From: an uncultured Sphingomonadales bacterium
GTDB lineage: Bacteria > Pseudomonadota > Alphaproteobacteria > Sphingomonadales > Sphingomonadaceae
Direction: 5' to 3'
DNA: 11,494 nt
NCBI GenBank assembly: GCA_903893935.1
Contig: CAITOD010000471.1
Span: 1 to 11,494 of the forward strand
Shown: in pieces, positions 2,198-11,494 of the stretch
Layout: each line of letters begins with the position of its first letter
Position numbering within the stretch: position 1 is the first letter of the stretch
Notes under the pieces: generated by a model
The model's input: the letters and a program-made list of their open reading frames with translations, nothing else
Told to the model about the DNA's origin: nothing
The model's database searches: none
Position numbers and translations under genes: made by a program

Positions 2198-5100
2198 GTG
2201 GTGGTCATAGGTTGGCGAGAGGTGGGGTCGAAGGCAGCTGCAGCCGCCCTAAAGCCGGCAATCGATGCGCTTAAACCGCAGATTGCTCGGCGCGGTGCAG
2301 CAGCGATAGCGGGGCAAAGTCTGCAACTGTTATCAGCCCATTTTGACGAAGCCCTTTCGTTGATTTCAGAAAACGCGGGGAGCCTAGGGCAGTTTCTATC
2401 CGATAAACTGAAGCGTGTGCTTTCAGATATTCCCGACGTATTTGATGACTCTGATGTGAAGCTGTGGCTTCAACAGGATGCAGTGCGTGCTTTGGTCATC
2501 GAAGGGGCACGAGCAGCACTGTCTGGACAACCTTTCGACGAATCTCGGAATTCTGCGGCTGCGTCTTTCGCGAGCTTTTCATCAGATGGACAATGGTGGG
2601 GTGAGTTTGTTTTCGATACAGCAGTCGCTTTCGTGGCGCTGTCGATTGAGGCGAAGCTAAACTTTGGTGATCGCGCGGCCATTGACAATGCAGCATTCTT
2701 AGCGAGCCAAACTCACGACCGCCTTGATAAAATTGAAGAATTATTAAGGGTTGGCACCTATCCGCCTGAAGATGCTGTACGTGCGCTAGTCGAGCCCGAA
2801 ATTGAGAAGGCAGATCGCCTGCGAGCTTTGACTGACGCCGAGCGTCCGAACAGACTGGTTCAGTTCGCAGAGCGGGTGGTGAAGGGCGACTTGCACGCTG
2901 CCGATAATAATCTACGCATTTCTCTTTTTCTGTCGACGGCGGCTGCCTTAGCCAGGGTCAAACGTACAGATGAGGCAGATCGTTGGGTTGAGGAGGCACG
3001 GAATGCTGGTGCGAATGATTTTGCTCCGGACTTAGCGCGGATTGCTTTGAACCGAGATCAGCTGGCCGAAGTATTCACGCTCCTCAAATCGCGAACGGAC
3101 TGTGTTTCAGTCATGCTGGTGGGTGAGGCACTCACGAAGCGTGATGGGGTAAGCGCCGGTTTGGGCTACGTGCGAAGCATTCTGACTCCCGGATCAATGA
3201 CAGGCTTCGCGATTGCGACCGTGGCCGACTGGCTTCAGAAGAACGATGAATGGGAAGAGGCGGAGCAGATTCTAGCCGCCGCCACTGAAAGGCAAAAGGA
3301 AGAAAATCCGACAATTCCCTACAGTTTAATGCGACTTCGAATCGCACTTATGATTCCAGCAGCGAACGAACGCACCAGGATGATTGGCGGAGACTCCTAT
3401 CTTCCTAAGCCTCATGATTTGCGTTCTGATGCTGAAGGTTTGAGATTGCGAATGGCGGCTCTTTCAGCTCTGGCCGAATTCCGTCATCGAATTTCCGACC
3501 TTGAACCAAGGGTTACCTGTTGGTTTGATGCTCAGCGATTATATTTAGAACTTTTGAATACGGACGAAAATCAGTTCATTGCAGCAGTAAGTGAGCTACA
3601 AACTAAATGTGAAGAGCCAGATAATAGCATCCTTTTTGCGTCAATTGCTGTGGTATTTGGGCTAAATTTTGGTATCGAAATCGCCCAGCGCGAATTGGAT
3701 CGCAAGGAATTACTAAATGGACTTGCTGATCATGATTTGATCGGCGCGTTGCCATTGATAATGCGACGACCGCCGACAGAGATCATTTTATTTCTAGACC
3801 GTTATCATGACGCACTGCTTGCCGCTGGAGCGCCGCTGCCATTCGTAGTCGGATTGCGAATAGAATTGCTCGCAAAGACGGGCGACACGCCACATGCCCG
3901 CTCTGAACTCAAGGCATGGGAATCTCGCCTCGGAGAAGAGGCTGTTGCGCGCCTAGAGGCTATACTAGTCGAAGTTGAGAACGGTGCGCTACCCGTAGCC
4001 CAGTGGCGTAAAGCCTTTGAAATTTCTGATACTGATGGAGACCTCTCCAACTTAGTTGAAGCAATGATTGTTGCAAACCATCCTGAGCTCGGTGAGTTTG
4101 CGATCAAGCATTGGCAGAGGCGGCATCGCATTGAAGAGACCATTCGTGCCGCCACCGCTCTTTTCAACGCACAGCGGGATCGGGAACTGGACCTGCTTCT
4201 CACCGAGATTGGGGATGCTGGCGAAGCCAGTGACGATATCCTGAGGCACAGGGCATGGGCTGCGTTTCGTGCCGGCCAGCTTGACGAGGCCAGGAGGCGG
4301 ACCACTGAATTGCGCGCGCGGCTGCCGCACGACCAAGGCCTGCGTCAGCTTGAGATAAACGTAGCACTTGAAAGTGGGCGCTGGGGCGACCTTGGGAAGC
4401 TTGCAAACGAGGACTATGAACGACGAGAGCACCGAGAAGCCCTGCAACTGCTACAGGGTGCTCAATTTGCACAGCTAATCAACGACCCCATCGCAGAGCA
4501 GTTGGCGCGTGCAGCCGCACATAAGAATCCCGATGACCCAGTGATACTGTTGTCTGCCTTCCAACTGGCAGTCGAAAGGGGAACTGATTGGGGAACGGAG
4601 GCGGGCGGCTGGTTCCGGACTGCAATTGCGCTTTCGGATGCCAACGGTCCAGTGCAGCAAGGCGAACTCCGCGAAGTCGTGGAGATGATCAAAGACCGGC
4701 AGGCGCAGGCCATCGAGCTTGATCGCATGATGCTGGCTGGACAGGTGCCGTTTGAACTGGCTGTCCGGCGATTGGGCGTGACCGTCAGCGAATTGTTGCT
4801 TGACCGTCTCTCGCGCAATGCAGAGCAACGCGATGCCCGGCGCAGATACTGTCTACCACTGATCGCCGGCAACCGTTTTGCTGGCGACATGTCAGGTTTT
4901 CACGCCGTCGCTTTCGACTTGGCGTCGCTGCTGACGCTGGAGTTGCTCGGGTTGCTTGACGAAGCACTGTTAGCCTTTCGCAAGGTAGTGATACCGGCTG
5001 GTACATTGCCGTACCTGTTCGATGATTATTTTCGAGCTCATCGCGGCCAAAGATCCCGTTTCCAACAGGCGGATCGGCTGAAGGCACTTATAACCGCCAA

Positions 5101-8100
5101 CAAAATCAATGTGATCAAACTACCTGATTGTGATGATGGCGACCGAGGTGAGCTACTGTTCGCCGCACAGACAAATTCGCGTTACGTGCATGACTTCCCC
5201 ATTCACGAGCCGGGGTCATTCGGCGAGCGGACGATGGATCTCACCGAAATTAGCGCCGAGATCGTCTCCCCAGCTGGCGTCATAGACGTGTTGGAAAATG
5301 GGGGGGAATTGGACACCGCTTCTGCGAATGCGGCCCGGACCATGCTTGGTAGCAGTGCGATGCGATGGCCATCGGAAATGACTGTCGATTTTTCGCGGCC
5401 CATACTGCTCAACATTGTCGCTCTGAATGGCCTCGAAAATGCGCGGGTTTTGACGACGCTGATAATGGCGGGCGCTCAACTCGTCGTCACCGACGTTACA
5501 GAAAGGGCCATCGATGACGAAATACGTGAATGGCAAGCGTCGCGGAATACCTTGGAGGCCATCGAAGGTTTCCGGGAAAAGCTGGTCGCGGCCACTGCCG
5601 CCGGTCGAATAACCCATGGCGGGTTCCGTCGGGACGGGGCCGAGGCCGAGCTGGATGGCAGTTTAGGGCCAAGCCCAATCATCGCTTTGCTTTCCGATGC
5701 ATCAAAATACGACGCGCTTGTGTCAGCGGAACGCATGTTTACGAGAGAGGCGGGCATCACTGATCGGATGGGGCAAAGTCGCCCGCTCTTCACGATTTTG
5801 GACGTGATTGATGAACTGGCACGTAAGGAGCTAATCGAACCCAGCAGGAGGTTGGCTGCGAGGACCAAACTACGGGCTTGCGGCGTGAGCTTCATTCCCG
5901 TCGATGCGGACGAGATCGTACAGGCTGCAGCACAAGGTGACTGGAAGAACGATCCGCCCCGGGCGATACGGGAAATAGTCAACTCCATTCATCTTCCGCT
6001 CATTCGCCATGCAATTGATTTACCGCGTGAAATGCATTGGGTCAGCAACGCTCTGGCCAATATGGTCGTCGCTATCAGACGGTGTTGGGCGGAGTTACCA
6101 GATGAGATTGCTGAGCCGGCGGCGACCTGGCTCCTGAAGGCTCTCCCGGACAGCCATTGGGTAGCACGGCAAGGCGCCACAGAAGAGCTAAGGCAGTGGG
6201 CGGCCAATACGCGCGTCATAATACACACGCTTCTCGCGCAACCCGTCGCAATTCCCGAGGAACGGCTAGATCAGTATGATGGGTGGCATGAATCGCTTGT
6301 AGGCCCCCAATTGGCAGGCCGAGATCGCGACATTAAATCCATTGCCTTCAATAACCTTGCTCAAGCTGTCAGCGATGTTGAGCCGGCCTCGTTTGAAGGT
6401 GAAGTGGTCGTACCGAAGAATCAAGTATGCATGTGGCTCTTGCGTCATGTTCCATCAGCATTTCGCGCAATGATCATCGGAGATGAGAGAATTCAAACGT
6501 CCCTTGGATTTGGAAAAGGAATTTTAAAAATCTTGGATCACAGGGTGTCGTTTAATAATCTAAGAGAATTTTTAAAAACAACCATAAATGGGGGGATTTC
6601 CCATCTAGAAGATGTCAACGGCAACATCGTCGCGGAAGCAGGTGAGATAAATGAAGCCGGAGACGCTGTGGCAGTTTTTGGGCAAAAGCGAGTTGCATTC
6701 GATTTTTCTGGTTTGCTACATGAAAATTTAAACGAAAGGACGCTAAATCTTGATCGCTTGTTTGCAGATGGGACCCTTGAACCCGAGCGGATCTCATTCT
6801 GGAGGAGTGCGGTAACTGACCGCGCTTTAGAATCCGACGAGCTTCATGAGCTAGTATCAGAGTTTTCGTGGACGCCCGAAGCTTGGGCCGAACAGACGAA
6901 AGCCAAGCAAGGAAAACTTGCATTCTCCGACCTGTGCGCGAAAGATCGGCGTTACTTTGCGGCATTGTTCCCTCTTGACCCGCAATTGTCATTGGCAGAT
7001 GCGTTGACGCAAGCGGTCGGTCGGCGGATGCATGGGCCAAACATTGCCGCGTCGGCACGAGCCCTAGCCCCTCTGACCATCACATCCAATTTTGACATTA
7101 TCGCGCTCACGAGCGCTTTGGGCGACGCTGAAATTGCTCAGCTATCGGAGCAATTGCTATCGGACGGAGACCTGTTTTCGATATTGGCTGCGTTTCAGAT
7201 TGCAAGCGCGCGATCCAAATCGGCGCCATGTGTGGAAGCCGGCACTAAGGCTCTCGATGCAATGCTCGGAGACGGAGGCCACTTGCAAAGTGCGGCGAAC
7301 GACTTTTCTGCCGTTGCGGTGGCCGCCATAGGGTGCGCTGATGCACTGGGGGTGCTTGCAGATTTGCCGTTGTCTCATCGTCGGTGCGCACTTCTGGCGC
7401 TCAGCGGCCATACAATCCGCGGTCTCGGTGGAATTGAATATGAGAGGCCGGAATTTCTTGATGCGGTTTTGCAGTGGCTCGGGCCCGGCAATCAACTAGG
7501 CGGTATGGTCGAGCGGCAGGTGGGGCGTTGGTGGGTACGTGAGTGGCTGCATCCCGCAGTTGTGGCCGCCCAGTTTCGCGCACGGGTGATAGCCATAATC
7601 CGTGCCGTTCCGGACGAATTTCGACCCGAACGATGGGCCTTTGAACTAAAGGCTCACGATGATGCCAACCCTGATATTTTAGAACAGATCACAGGCCCTC
7701 TTGACGAATTTAGCTCAAGCTGGAAGACACTGGAATTTCCCACGGATATTATGGAACACGTTTTAGATGACGATAATATAGACCAAGCAAGCAACACGCT
7801 ATTGAATATTATTATGGCATTTGAGCTTCCTGACAATCCGAAAATTGCACGCGATGCAGTTCTTTCACTATTGAAACGCTGCAGTCCGGACAACTTTAAT
7901 ATGGCGGTAAAACTAGCTTTACTTGCTGCATGGCGATGGGCAGATGCCGAGCTCGCCATCAAGGCATATCAAAGTGGTATTTCAGTGCAAACAGCGACAA
8001 ACATTTCTATCCGAACAAAAGGAGAGTGGGCTGTTAGCGCAGGCGCTTGCATTGCTGACGCAGCCGAAAGGGCTCGAGTTTTGGAGCAGAATTTTAGACA

Positions 8101-8230
8101 GTTGATCAATATTCCACTAACTCCAGCCCAAGCAAGGGAGATGCTCGGACTTATCGATAAATTGCAGGATTTTTATGCTAGGGATGATTGGATTTCGGAG
8201 ATTCGGTCCACTTTGCTATTGGCTGCATGA
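2198..8230 (+). CDS. giant TPR-like protein with central PIN-like nuclease region, candidate conflict/defence protein
   Basis: This is a soluble protein of about 2010 residues, with no signal peptide or clear membrane helix. Residues 1-80 are amphipathic helices. Residues 85-185 form a compact helical module ending in DRLDKIEELL, a style I associate with N-terminal adaptor modules of large bacterial conflict proteins. Residues about 215-820 are repeated helix pairs with TPR-like spacing (for example WAAFRAGQLDEARRRTTELR at 687-706). Residues about 895-1240 resemble the PIN module of the 'PIN-TPR-GreABC' family as I remember it: a first strand VAFDLASLLTLELLGLLD with D907, then a long helical insert, then a second PIN-like half ending ITDRMGQSRPLFTILDVIDEL. 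PIN domains are metal-dependent RNases, but N1072 and A1177/E1178 stand where I expect acids. Residues 1280-2010 are mostly helical and unassigned, and I see no GreA/GreB C-terminal domain. The gene sits alone between transfer genes with patchy, often AT-rich composition, which suggests transfer. Target and activity are unknown. Confidence 0.8.
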   Translation: MVVIGWREVGSKAAAAALKPAIDALKPQIARRGAAAIAGQSLQLLSAHFDEALSLISENAGSLGQFLSDKLKRVLSDIPDVFDDSDVKLWLQQDAVRALVIEGARAALSGQPFDESRNSAAASFASFSSDGQWWGEFVFDTAVAFVALSIEAKLNFGDRAAIDNAAFLASQTHDRLDKIEELLRVGTYPPEDAVRALVEPEIEKADRLRALTDAERPNRLVQFAERVVKGDLHAADNNLRISLFLSTAAALARVKRTDEADRWVEEARNAGANDFAPDLARIALNRDQLAEVFTLLKSRTDCVSVMLVGEALTKRDGVSAGLGYVRSILTPGSMTGFAIATVADWLQKNDEWEEAEQILAAATERQKEENPTIPYSLMRLRIALMIPAANERTRMIGGDSYLPKPHDLRSDAEGLRLRMAALSALAEFRHRISDLEPRVTCWFDAQRLYLELLNTDENQFIAAVSELQTKCEEPDNSILFASIAVVFGLNFGIEIAQRELDRKELLNGLADHDLIGALPLIMRRPPTEIILFLDRYHDALLAAGAPLPFVVGLRIELLAKTGDTPHARSELKAWESRLGEEAVARLEAILVEVENGALPVAQWRKAFEISDTDGDLSNLVEAMIVANHPELGEFAIKHWQRRHRIEETIRAATALFNAQRDRELDLLLTEIGDAGEASDDILRHRAWAAFRAGQLDEARRRTTELRARLPHDQGLRQLEINVALESGRWGDLGKLANEDYERREHREALQLLQGAQFAQLINDPIAEQLARAAAHKNPDDPVILLSAFQLAVERGTDWGTEAGGWFRTAIALSDANGPVQQGELREVVEMIKDRQAQAIELDRMMLAGQVPFELAVRRLGVTVSELLLDRLSRNAEQRDARRRYCLPLIAGNRFAGDMSGFHAVAFDLASLLTLELLGLLDEALLAFRKVVIPAGTLPYLFDDYFRAHRGQRSRFQQADRLKALITANKINVIKLPDCDDGDRGELLFAAQTNSRYVHDFPIHEPGSFGERTMDLTEISAEIVSPAGVIDVLENGGELDTASANAARTMLGSSAMRWPSEMTVDFSRPILLNIVALNGLENARVLTTLIMAGAQLVVTDVTERAIDDEIREWQASRNTLEAIEGFREKLVAATAAGRITHGGFRRDGAEAELDGSLGPSPIIALLSDASKYDALVSAERMFTREAGITDRMGQSRPLFTILDVIDELARKELIEPSRRLAARTKLRACGVSFIPVDADEIVQAAAQGDWKNDPPRAIREIVNSIHLPLIRHAIDLPREMHWVSNALANMVVAIRRCWAELPDEIAEPAATWLLKALPDSHWVARQGATEELRQWAANTRVIIHTLLAQPVAIPEERLDQYDGWHESLVGPQLAGRDRDIKSIAFNNLAQAVSDVEPASFEGEVVVPKNQVCMWLLRHVPSAFRAMIIGDERIQTSLGFGKGILKILDHRVSFNNLREFLKTTINGGISHLEDVNGNIVAEAGEINEAGDAVAVFGQKRVAFDFSGLLHENLNERTLNLDRLFADGTLEPERISFWRSAVTDRALESDELHELVSEFSWTPEAWAEQTKAKQGKLAFSDLCAKDRRYFAALFPLDPQLSLADALTQAVGRRMHGPNIAASARALAPLTITSNFDIIALTSALGDAEIAQLSEQLLSDGDLFSILAAFQIASARSKSAPCVEAGTKALDAMLGDGGHLQSAANDFSAVAVAAIGCADALGVLADLPLSHRRCALLALSGHTIRGLGGIEYERPEFLDAVLQWLGPGNQLGGMVERQVGRWWVREWLHPAVVAAQFRARVIAIIRAVPDEFRPERWAFELKAHDDANPDILEQITGPLDEFSSSWKTLEFPTDIMEHVLDDDNIDQASNTLLNIIMAFELPDNPKIARDAVLSLLKRCSPDNFNMAVKLALLAAWRWADAELAIKAYQSGISVQTATNISIRTKGEWAVSAGACIADAAERARVLEQNFRQLINIPLTPAQAREMLGLIDKLQDFYARDDWISEIRSTLLLAA
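4880..5917 (+). other. PIN-like region of the giant protein (residues about 895-1240)
   Basis: This is a sub-region of the giant gene. The first half starts with a hydrophobic strand carrying D907 (codon 4916-4918), then a helix and the segment VVIPAGTLPYLFDDY, which matches the usual PIN order of strand, helix, strand, acidic helix. A second half begins at PILLNIVALNGLENARVL (1068-1085), where the strand residue is Asn1072 instead of Asp, and continues through VVTDVTERAIDDE to DALVSAERM (1172-1180). I read this as two tandem PIN-like halves, or one PIN with a long helical insert. From memory, family relatives read D-D-R where this protein reads A1177-E1178-R1179. Confidence 0.55.
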
Positions 8231-8373
8231 ACGTGATCGTTTCGAATGACTGGCCGGGTGTAAAAATTGGAAGCGTCGTCGCGATCCGGATGGTGAACAA
8301 TCGACAGGTTCAGCTTGTGAACCGGAACTTCGAACGGCCGCTGCGACGGCGATTGTCCTTGTGCTCAGTTTAG
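8227..8373 (+). CDS. possible 48-residue ORF overlapping the giant gene stop (ATGA)
   Basis: An ATG at 8227 overlaps the giant gene's TGA in an ATGA arrangement, the usual signature of translational coupling. The frame runs 48 codons with a basic composition (an FERPLRRRL segment near the end) and stops at 8371-8373. I recognise no family. It has no separate ribosome binding site, and its length and composition could be chance, so it may be either a small partner of the giant protein or non-coding spacer. Confidence 0.25.
   Translation: MNVIVSNDWPGVKIGSVVAIRMVNNRQVQLVNRNFERPLRRRLSLCSV
8307..8323. repeat. inverted repeat GGTTCA-N5-TGAACC in the gap after the giant gene
   Basis: Two 6-bp arms (8307-8312 and 8318-8323) flank a 5-nt loop. 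A wider pair, ACAATCG (8297-8303) and CGATTGT (8350-8356), encloses it. No T-run follows, so this is not a typical intrinsic terminator. It may be an RNA hairpin limiting read-through or a binding site ahead of the next gene. The rest of the 8231-8412 gap holds a tandem TTTAGC pair (8369-8380) and a weak promoter-like match (TTGTCC at 8353, 16 nt, TTTAGC at 8375). Confidence 0.3.
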
Positions 8374-8412: not shown

Positions 8413-8783
8413 ATGACCATCAAGGTCAAAGCCCATCATCGCCGCATTCTGGATTTGGCCGCAGAGGACAACCCTACCAACGCGCGCGTCGATGCCTACA
8501 AGAAGTCCCTCGGCTACCAAGAAAGTCTTGCCCAAGGTTGGATTGAGGAACTTCCAAAACCTGCGGGTAACGGATTCTATTTTCGCATCACTCCTGCAGA
8601 GACTGAAGCCCGATATAGGCCGAATTTGAAGGCGTTACCCAAGCGAAAGCCCTTGGCGATGGCCAAGCTAAGACTTGCCACTTTCGCGGGGTGCCTCTCG
8701 ACAAATCCAAAGGGTTGCTGAGTGAATGGACGACGGTTACCGACGAACTCGAACATCGCAGGGAACGACTGCTTGTTCGCTAA
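8413..8783 (+). pseudogene. small hypothetical gene, apparently frameshifted near 8616
   Basis: The uninterrupted frame gives 102 residues (stop 8719-8721), but its last third has a non-protein-like composition. From about 8619 another frame is open to a TAA at 8781-8783 and reads like real protein: AEFEGVTQAKALGDG, then RGVPLDKSKGLLSEW and DELEHRRERLLVR at the end. Joining the first frame up to about 8616 to this one gives roughly 122 residues, and the stop then falls 9 bp short of the convergent traI stop. The implied lesion is loss of one base (or gain of two) around 8605-8620. The N-terminal part is basic and helical, with KKSLGYQESLAQGWIEEL in the middle. I recognise no family. Alternatives are a sequencing error, or a natural 102-residue protein with an unrelated open frame downstream. 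The gene has its own ribosome binding site. Confidence 0.5.
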
Positions 8784-8792
8784 ACACGCGCA

Positions 8793-11494
8793 TCACAATC
8801 CTAACTCGAGATCAATCTCGGGAACATCGAGTTCCGGTGCTTTGGGTGCGATTGTTGCCTGCAACCGTCCTGCACTCATGGAAAGCGGATCAACTGCGAA
8901 CGGATCCTGTTGCACGGGCTGCTGGTGGCGATCTTCCCGCCTGCCCTGCGCGCTCTTCCGACTCTGCTGTTCACTTACCGCCTCGACTGCACTAGCCTTG
9001 TCACCTGAATTGGCGCCAATGGTTCGCAGCAGGTGGTCCCGATCATTCGTGAAAATTGTTAGATCATCCCGAACCCGTGTCGCCATGACATGGGCAAGCC
9101 GCTGGCTGGACAGATGGCGTTCGGCGGAATGCATCACGCCAATCCCCCTGTCGGTGGTCATACCCTGCGCCTGGTGCATGTTGATGGCATAGGCGAGCCC
9201 GAGGCGCGTCAGCATCCGATCTCCAGGCTCCAGCAGCAGCGTTGCCCCGTCAGATGTCCTGACCTCAACACCGGCTTTGCCGATGGAAACAATCTCAGCC
9301 TCTGCCGAATTCAGCAGCCCGCGCGCCTTGTCGTTTGCCGTCCAGCGAACACGATCACCCTCATAGAGGCGAAAGGTCTCGCGTTCGGAAAGGTTCAATA
9401 TGTCACGTTTAGCCGCAGCATCGAGCTGGTCCGGCCTGAATTTGTGCTGATTTCCCTCGCCATCCCGCAAAGTGACCACACCTTCGCGAGAAACCCGCAG
9501 AACCTGATATGACCCGTGCTCCAACCCAGCCGGCTTGTCCCGCGCCACCACCTCCAGCACCTGTCTGGGCTGATAGTTATGGGCATAACGCAGTTCCTCG
9601 CGCGTCAGGTGCACGGATTCGAGGCGCGTGAGGCTGATTCCCTCGCCACGCAAGGTGCCTTCGGCCTTCAACCCCTCCTGTACGAGCACGTTGAGAACGG
9701 ACCGTGTTTCACGGCCCGAGGCATAAAGCGCCGTCGTTTCCCGATCCTCTGCGGACAGCTCCAACCACTTTTTCGCCGCTGCCTGACGAAAATCCACGCC
9801 GGCGCTGACAACACGATCGCCGAGCACCTCAAATGCCGCCGCGAATTCACCCGCCCGCGTCAGCGCCGCAATGGCCTGCATGTGCTCGGTCCGCTGCCTG
9901 TGACTGACCTCCATCCTGGCCATCGCCGGCTGATGCGACTGGACCAGCGTAAAGGCCTTGCCGGCATCGATCGGTTGCAACTGCGCACGATCGCCTATCA
10001 TGGCCAGGCGATCGAGACCGAGCCGGTTGGCGATGGTCACAAGGTCGTTCATCGGCTTGTTGGCAACCAGCGAGGCTTCGTCGAGCACCAGGATCGTGTC
10101 CTTGAGCGCGGCACGCGACGCCTCGAATACTTCACGGCCCCCAATTAGCGCCGCGCGTAAATGGTCATTGACGAACGACGACACGGTCTGCGCCGAAATG
10201 CCCGCCTCATCCTTCAACATGGCGACCATGGTGTTGGCCTGGGCGAGTCCAAGGACCTGTTTGCCCTCCTGACGCGCCACATCGGCAATGCTGGAAATGA
10301 GCGATGTTTTACCGGCGCCCGCGACACCCTGAATGACCACAACGCGATCCGAACTCGATAGCGCCAGCACACCGGCTGCCAGTTGTTCCGAACCAAGCGG
10401 CCGCTCACGAGATTGTGCCTGCAGGCGGCCGGTTGCGTCAGCAGGCGCAACGATGGCTGCGCCTTTGCCTCGCCCCTCGTCAATTCCGGCCAGCAGGTTG
10501 CGTTCTTCGGCCAGATGCTCCGGTGTCGTGACATGGGTGATCGTGCCGTCGGCCCGAGTGGGCCTGCCGAAAATCAGCGCCCCCTGCTTCGCCAGGGTGG
10601 CAATGCGGTCCTCGACGGCATTGATGGTCACGCCCTTGATCCCAAGATCGAGCGCCGCGCGCGACACTTCGTGGATGGCAAATGCCGCCTCCCGCTGTCC
10701 CAGAATGCGGATCGCCGACGCCACTGCCATTTCGGCGCCGATCTCCGCCGGGCTCATCGACAGGCGTGCCATGCCCCGACTCAACAGGGGATCGCTCGGC
10801 CGCAACCATTCGCGCAGGCGTTTGGCCCATTCAGCAGCCTTCGTAGCGACCATCTGCAAGGCGTTGATCCCTTGGCTATCCTTCGCGGCACCGGCGACCC
10901 GCACTTCCGCTGCCGACACCACAGCCGCGCCATCAAACCCCAAACCCGCAGCCCGTTCCCCCCACTCCGCGCGAAGAGCATCACGGTCCTCAAGGTTGAT
11001 CTTGTCATCCCGAGTGCGCTTGGTGATTTCGCGCATAAGAGCTGGATTGGTGGCATCCCGACCAAGATCGTTTGCCTTTGCCAGGATGTCCTCTCGCCGC
11101 TGACTGAAGGCTGAGAGGACATTCTTGGGCACGCCCTCAATTTCAAACTGGCCGTGCTTTCCGGTCAGGCTGGTCTCGTAGCCAAGCTCGTCGACCAGCG
11201 TTCGCAACGCCGCGTGATAGACGCTGCCGATGATGGAATTGTTTTTCCAAAGCTGCTCGTTGTGAAGCGCGCGCCACTCGCCGGCGACTTTGGTCAGGTT
11301 GGCGATTACGACATGGATGTGCGCCTGCGGGTCAAGCTTGCGGCTCGTGTCGTGCTGGAACATCGCATACGTCAGGTGTTCGGTGCGGACCGGATCACCC
11401 TTGCGGTTGGTGTCGTATGTGCGCCCTTCCGCGAATGCCTTTTCGACCCAGCCCATGGTTTGCCGCACAGCGGCCATGTGCGCGGCCAGCAATC
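8793..11494 (-). CDS. traI: MobF-type conjugative relaxase-helicase TraI/TrwC (N-terminus beyond window edge)
   Basis: MobF relaxases nick oriT, stay covalently bound to the 5' end and unwind the transferred strand. The visible part is about 899 residues of an open frame that continues past the window; the catalytic tyrosines near the N-terminus are therefore missing. Counting from the first visible Met, the HUH metal site is H47 with H58-I-H60 inside HDTSRKLDPQAHIHVV (bases about 11313-11354), a TrwC-family signature. The RecD-like helicase follows: Walker A GVAGAGKT at 389-396, Walker B LVLDEAS at 468-474, motif III GDRAQLQP at 500-507, and the C-terminal motif YAINMHQAQGMT at 768-779. After about 825 comes a Gln/Arg-rich linker and an acidic tail ending VPEIDLELGL, possibly a coupling-protein recognition tail. 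All visible motifs are intact. The gene converges on the small upstream gene with a 9-bp gap to the repaired frame. Confidence 0.93.
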   Translation of the reverse strand, partial: LLAAHMAAVRQTMGWVEKAFAEGRTYDTNRKGDPVRTEHLTYAMFQHDTSRKLDPQAHIHVVIANLTKVAGEWRALHNEQLWKNNSIIGSVYHAALRTLVDELGYETSLTGKHGQFEIEGVPKNVLSAFSQRREDILAKANDLGRDATNPALMREITKRTRDDKINLEDRDALRAEWGERAAGLGFDGAAVVSAAEVRVAGAAKDSQGINALQMVATKAAEWAKRLREWLRPSDPLLSRGMARLSMSPAEIGAEMAVASAIRILGQREAAFAIHEVSRAALDLGIKGVTINAVEDRIATLAKQGALIFGRPTRADGTITHVTTPEHLAEERNLLAGIDEGRGKGAAIVAPADATGRLQAQSRERPLGSEQLAAGVLALSSSDRVVVIQGVAGAGKTSLISSIADVARQEGKQVLGLAQANTMVAMLKDEAGISAQTVSSFVNDHLRAALIGGREVFEASRAALKDTILVLDEASLVANKPMNDLVTIANRLGLDRLAMIGDRAQLQPIDAGKAFTLVQSHQPAMARMEVSHRQRTEHMQAIAALTRAGEFAAAFEVLGDRVVSAGVDFRQAAAKKWLELSAEDRETTALYASGRETRSVLNVLVQEGLKAEGTLRGEGISLTRLESVHLTREELRYAHNYQPRQVLEVVARDKPAGLEHGSYQVLRVSREGVVTLRDGEGNQHKFRPDQLDAAAKRDILNLSERETFRLYEGDRVRWTANDKARGLLNSAEAEIVSIGKAGVEVRTSDGATLLLEPGDRMLTRLGLAYAINMHQAQGMTTDRGIGVMHSAERHLSSQRLAHVMATRVRDDLTIFTNDRDHLLRTIGANSGDKASAVEAVSEQQSRKSAQGRREDRHQQPVQQDPFAVDPLSMSAGRLQATIAPKAPELDVPEIDLELGL

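Follow-up and report, generated by a model that had tools for sequence, protein, structure and literature searches.

The window analysed here is a complete contig of 11,494 bases (CAITOD010000471.1) from an uncultured Sphingomonadales bacterium, whose assembly (GCA_903893935.1) comprises 3.2 Mb in 755 contigs and is 82% complete. It carries a giant gene on the + strand, located between TraG and the convergent TraI/MobF gene of an F-type region, and the GC content, about 0.62 in the tra flanks, drops to about 0.45–0.60 within this gene. A preliminary description had taken the product for a giant protein with a TPR array and a PIN-like core, carried as cargo in a conjugation region. The list of open reading frames (ORFs) confirms a frame of 2,010 codons, and the features assigned are the following (AF2, AlphaFold2; pLDDT, predicted local distance difference test; HTH, helix-turn-helix; HMM, hidden Markov model):

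1–1563, + strand: TraG, C-terminal part, its 5' end lost at the contig edge (NCBIfam PRK13735, E 1.2e-23, under the model's full-length cut-off)
2190–2194, + strand: AGGAG, a likely ribosome-binding site read by eye, 3 nt 5' of the GTG at 2198 and 6 nt 5' of the GTG at 2201
2198–8230, + strand: giant TPR–HTH–double PIN–permuted GreAB-C protein, 2,010 residues
2198–2767, + strand: helical N-terminal module, residues 1–190 (AF2 model; pLDDT below 50 at residues 1–41 and 182–187)
2771–4663, + strand: TPR superhelix, residues 192–822
4667–4876, + strand: HTH_upst_double_PIN (PF24407), residues 824–893 (Pfam E 6.1e-20; placed identically by the genome search)
4904–5299, + strand: PIN1, residues ~903–1034 (AF2 secondary structure, conservation, hhalign to PIN2)
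5402–5878, + strand: PIN2, residues ~1069–1227 (AF2 secondary structure, conservation, hhalign to PIN1)
6416–8182, + strand: fused partner module, residues 1407–1995 (hhalign against the stand-alone family; HMM)
6530–6679, + strand: permuted GreA/B C-terminal domain (PF24388), residues 1445–1494 (Pfam E 2.1e-6; genome search E 7e-8)
8793–11492, − strand: TraI/MobF relaxase-helicase, its N-terminus lost at the contig edge (Pfam TrwC E 6.9e-51; NCBIfam MobF 162 bits against 100)

A frameshift or assembly artefact was rejected, since 11 full-length relatives span 99–100% of the giant protein at 33–47% identity and the ratio of nonsynonymous to synonymous divergence (dN/dS) is 0.23 across the gene, indicating purifying selection. 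The TPR array is borne out, as a superhelix. It is followed by the HTH domain of PF24407 (71.8 bits against a cut-off of 27), a family that matches all 15 members of set A1, and the HTH immediately precedes what the preliminary description had seen as one PIN-like core and what is now assigned as two tandem PIN-like domains, as judged from strand–helix order, profile and motif. Indeed, PIN1 and PIN2 align with each other (hhalign probability 95.6, E 1.1e-8), as an internal duplication. The preliminary description would have given way to a predicted structure devoid of a PIN fold; the AF2 model shows PIN-like strand–helix order, but the fold search could not isolate the PIN part. Foldseek and VIA-align, run on the C-terminal half, gave no PIN or GreA structure among the matches listed; helical repeats filled these matches and residues 820–1222 were barely probed, so that this outcome is not evidence against PIN or GreA folds. 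Sequence profiles of the PDB yielded designed TPR proteins and chance-level matches.

The preliminary description was wrong on the C-terminus, which it held to lack a GreA/GreB C-terminal domain and to consist of about 730 extra unassigned residues. The 600-residue C-terminus that follows the PINs is made of a GreAB-C domain and a solenoid. The GreAB-C domain is short, permuted and C-terminal to both PINs; it matches PF24388 (Permuted_GreAB-C) at 27.7 bits against a cut-off of 27, and residues 1442–1501 are beta-rich in the AF2 model. Most of the supposedly extra ~730 residues are a second protein fused on, which other relatives encode in a gene of its own. In Methylophaga and Agrobacterium plasmids, the large protein stops once the PINs are complete, and its gene overlaps a following one of ~625–640 residues, the product of which is similar to the window protein in BLAST (E 4e-9 for Agrobacterium, 1e-3 for Methylophaga). 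A profile built from 15 fused C-termini aligned with the stand-alone family over 586 of 626 columns (hhalign probability 100, E 3.9e-43). All six split loci with readable context (L002, L003, L008, L019, L020 and L021, the giant protein of L008 being incomplete at the contig start) have an overlapping downstream partner gene of ~640 residues; the frames overlap by 4–23 bases, with mechanically set starts, or annotated starts in the case of the plasmids. The Agrobacterium partner used as a query listed 44 proteins, itself included, and Permuted_GreAB-C was found at E ≤ 0.01 in 17 of the 22 stand-alone or split partners scanned.

Among 33 large proteins scanned with the HMM, 19 carry the partner module, 11 end before it (five of these, P0017–P0020 and P0023, being classed as split by their end alone) and three, of ~1,930–2,050 residues, are long without a detectable module (L023 3567–9650, L026 7048–13206 and L027 1729–7515). 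On a tree of residues 600–1395, counted without the latter three, the fused or split state requires three changes, at least two of them on well-supported branches; the approximately unbiased (AU) test gave p 2e-42, for groups named after the tree had been inspected and with long branches in the tree. Partner and large protein occur together in 3 of 72,556 plasmid records, two of which, sharing their species and length, appear to be a single plasmid. The module was also found in 3 of 398 genomes, fused in the window's own and in G367, and as a decayed split copy in G570. In the latter (L058, 7275–9357), an esterase-like N-terminus with a portion of the TPR lies right next to the partner's second half, as after an internal deletion. 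Across 299 genomes the sole match to PF24388 was the window's own, so the model misses divergent partners.

The anatomy recalls a predicted TPR-GreAB-C-PIN conflict system put forward in 2021 (Kaur et al.). The canonical large proteins of this system (PF20698), as seen in L041 and L048, have the order effector–TPR–GreAB-C–one PIN; in both, a GreA_GreB match (PF01272, residues ~812–888), under its cut-off, precedes the PIN (~994–1139), these being two of the six canonical proteins scanned. The window protein departs from this order, with TPR–HTH–PIN–PIN–permuted GreAB-C–solenoid and the partner gene fused. What it shares, according to the eLife paper (PMC8195603), is a variable N-terminus, a TPR array in the core, and GreAB-C and PIN in one fast-evolving protein encoded mostly by a stand-alone gene; the paper also describes the exchange of effectors and adaptors and proposes a mechanism at RNA polymerase, a logic that would apply here as well. 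The kinship with a PIN-TPR-GreABC module that the preliminary description had named holds, on the Pfam matches, PF20698 in relatives and PMC8195603. PF20698 itself scores 14.4 bits on the window protein, under the cut-off of 27.8; it is found at E ≤ 0.01 in 6 of the 15 set-A1 members (best 6.7e-10) and is a precomputed label on 4 of 23 searched relatives. The window protein is no orphan: it is real and mobile, and represents a variant of a predicted conflict system already known, with a double PIN and a GreAB-C that is permuted and fused, and the preliminary description was right to propose a distinct subfamily. Both PF24407 and PF24388 are already named families; no paper naming either accession was found in the literature searched. 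The fusion of the parts that they represent, the switching between fused and split forms and the acid pattern of the PINs (see below) are described here.

The gene is mobile and patchy, in line with the cargo status first proposed. PF24407 occurs in 7 of 296 Sphingomonadales genomes (five above cut-off) and in 4 of 398 genomes of the phylum, the window's own being included in both counts; 50,697 phage records gave no match, and the best E value in PHROGs was 0.13. In 5 of 8 genomes, a recombinase of the tyrosine or serine type is encoded within 10 kb, compared with 0.53 of 8 expected (P ~5e-5; counts were entered by hand, the 10-kb reach was set after the loci had been seen, and a ninth genome, G144, with a broken 214-residue frame, was excluded). 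The window is 93.7% identical in DNA to a contig of Novosphingobium sp. FSW06-99 (L004), but this similarity is confined to 3382–8339: it stops 109 bases 3' of the giant stop codon, its other end being the edge of that contig. Synonymous divergence in this pair is 0.03–0.07 in the HTH and PINs, 0.14 in the TPR part and linker, 0.18 in the GreAB-C region and 0.28 in the C-terminal solenoid, and this unevenness suggests that the gene is a mosaic, shaped by recombination within it. The solenoid value is four to nine times that of the HTH/PIN part (window 3382–8230 against L004). For PIN2 alone, dN/dS is 0.76, from nine and four differences, which are too few to interpret.

The N-terminal module of the window protein, in which no Pfam family is found above cut-off, occupies the site where relatives bear swapped effector or adaptor domains: HNH-like in P0017 (under cut-off), esterase-like in P0018 and L003, phosphorylase in L026 and the bacterial death-like domain bDLD3 in L027. 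A gene for a phosphorylase-bDLD3 protein lies directly upstream in L027, and the same neighbour accompanies L050, a large protein of the PF20698 type; both L026 and L027 are distant members that lack the partner module. Defence neighbours are present in some relatives, as the preliminary description had supposed: NADAR, HmaB and HmaC genes directly upstream of the giant gene in L025, type I restriction S and R genes with an integrase in L026, and, as annotated next to the plasmid copies, an HsdR-like protein, SIR2, VapBC, RelE/HigA and restriction endonucleases. Note that in L025 (2–13491) NADAR, HmaB, HmaC and the giant gene lie on one strand with short gaps and may form an extended Hma operon; that stretch showed no HmaA.

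The two PINs differ in the acids that they have kept. In PIN1, the first catalytic residue, D907, is an Asp in all 33 relatives and position 943 is acidic in 29 of 33, while the strand-4 positions are acidic in 2 of 30 (998) and 1 of 30 (999) relatives, the latter being the window protein with D999; E985 is almost invariant in 15 close relatives. PIN2 has kept its first Asp (1072) in 23 of 31 relatives and lost it in 8, and positions 1172 and 1178 are acidic in 30 and 33 of 33 (D1172 and E1178 in the window). By contrast, canonical single-PIN relatives have both the first and the late Asp in eight of nine cases, read by eye, the ninth being incomplete. Because the losses are complementary, with the first catalytic Asp retained in PIN1 and the last acid in PIN2, the pattern suggests that the two domains form one composite active site; with D999, PIN1 of the window might instead be complete by itself. 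As reported in PMC12923823, the SMG5–SMG6 composite PIN nuclease also comprises two paralogous PINs that may complement one active site, but it is eukaryotic, made of two proteins and devoted to mRNA decay, and serves as an analogy only. L026 and L027 align over one PIN's worth of sequence, possibly a single-PIN form.

Taken together, the PF24407 and PF24388 matches above cut-off, PF20698 in relatives, the fused or split partner, the swapped N-termini, the defence neighbours and the recombinases argue for a conflict (defence) protein of the TPR–GreAB-C–PIN kind that is both mobile and modular, with tandem PINs and its permuted GreAB-C partner fused, in which the TPR would sense and an RNase would be docked at RNA polymerase; we give this reading an even chance of being right. 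Judging from the families of its parts, the TPR superhelix would keep the protein inactive and sense an invader-linked signal, while the GreAB-C part would dock on RNA polymerase, like GreA/GreB at the beta-prime coiled coil of the secondary channel. The double PIN, thereby brought to transcripts that are nascent or backtracked, would cleave them once a sensed invader releases it, and the N-terminal module may recruit or trigger a second response. On a conjugative element, such a protein would protect host and plasmid from phages or rival elements. A more specific version is put forward only tentatively: an immune nuclease whose composite site is formed by two complementary-degenerate tandem PINs in one chain, kept at RNA polymerase by a repeatedly fused and split GreAB-C partner, in a cassette moved between elements. 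As described in PMC13092281, the DefensePredictor systems DS-3 and DS-5 require a PIN domain for phage defence and are not classical toxin–antitoxin pairs; no TPR–GreAB-C architecture appears in the passages that describe them.

Several observations weigh against a conflict protein with this mechanism. PADLOC has no model for the giant protein (0 families at E ≤ 1). Of the 10 neighbours scanned, six are without a PADLOC family, all from the two plasmids, few neighbours having been scanned for several chromosomal relatives. Of nine genomes with PF24407, the window's own included, six have the partner module and three (G185, G436 and G475) do not. The PIN folds are supported by secondary structure, profile and motif, without a fold match; PIN1 and PIN2 reach profile probabilities of only 51 and 37 with canonical PF20698 PINs, and the first Asp of PIN2 is N1072 in the window protein. 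Finally, no published activity of any family member was found among the matches listed in the literature searched, which included few subscription journals.

The strongest alternative, which is nonetheless unlikely, is that the PINs cleave mRNA or tRNA away from RNA polymerase, the permuted GreAB-C and solenoid binding another protein or RNA as an inhibitor or sensor. FKBP-like folds have many binding partners; this GreAB-C is permuted as well as short, and split forms encode it separately, which is what one would expect of an inhibitor. However, repeated change between fused and split states, at least twice on well-supported branches, is more in keeping with a permanent complex than with a removable antitoxin, and the kinship to canonical proteins with GreA_GreB before the PIN (the two below-cut-off matches among six) also speaks against this alternative. 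It is less likely still that both PINs are catalytically dead and act as a scaffold or sensor, the effector being the N-terminal module or a partner: PIN1 lacks a strand-4 acid in nearly all relatives, PIN2 has lost its first Asp in some, and certain N-termini resemble enzymes, but the invariance of D907 and of the acid at 1178, with an acid at 943 in most relatives, is high conservation for dead domains.

We consider it improbable that the protein serves the plasmid itself, in entry exclusion, plasmid competition or conjugation control. Its location in an F-type region, with TraG on one side and TraI on the other, would fit, but relatives lie in chromosomes and other plasmids where the stretches read show no tra genes, either annotated or recognised, the FSW06-99 similarity ends shortly after the stop codon, and Sphingopyxis macrogoltabida plasmid 1 has a type III restriction system in the same convergent TraG–MobF interval instead; membership of the transfer apparatus was rejected. 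That this is an ordinary chromosomal gene, or a decaying one, with no part in defence is very improbable: L005/L022 adjoin an hslU-like ORF and L006 a topA-like ORF (both by eye), but the homologues seen lack the common chromosomal setting that the preliminary description would have taken as contrary evidence, and the patchiness within the order, the purifying selection and the defence and recombinase neighbours oppose it.

If the conflict reading is correct, bacteria would police transcription, with an RNase at the secondary channel of RNA polymerase destroying invader transcripts during their synthesis, and a composite PIN would constitute a built-in switch. The natural fusion shows which protein is the partner in the split two-gene systems, and it offers a one-gene version for cloning, which makes the 2021 prediction directly testable.

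A VapBC-type toxin–antitoxin pair was rejected given the 2,010-residue size of the protein and the lack of a Pfam or NCBIfam family in both small neighbouring ORFs, 1557–1904 (−) and 8413–8721 (+). Scans of the window for tandem repeats, tRNA and Rfam families, of the giant-gene borders for inverted repeats and of 1500–2400 for promoters found none. The ORF at 1557–1904 encodes 115 residues with a probable membrane helix (by eye), and that at 8413–8721 encodes 102 residues. The TraG–MobF interval is a possible hot spot for defence cargo, with restriction genes in one of three plasmids looked at and none in that interval of the two others. In L052 (NZ_CP012701.1, 112000–140500), which comes from a Sphingopyxis plasmid, this interval holds a DrmD-like SNF2 protein and a PDC-S06 candidate, together with a type III methyltransferase and restriction enzyme.

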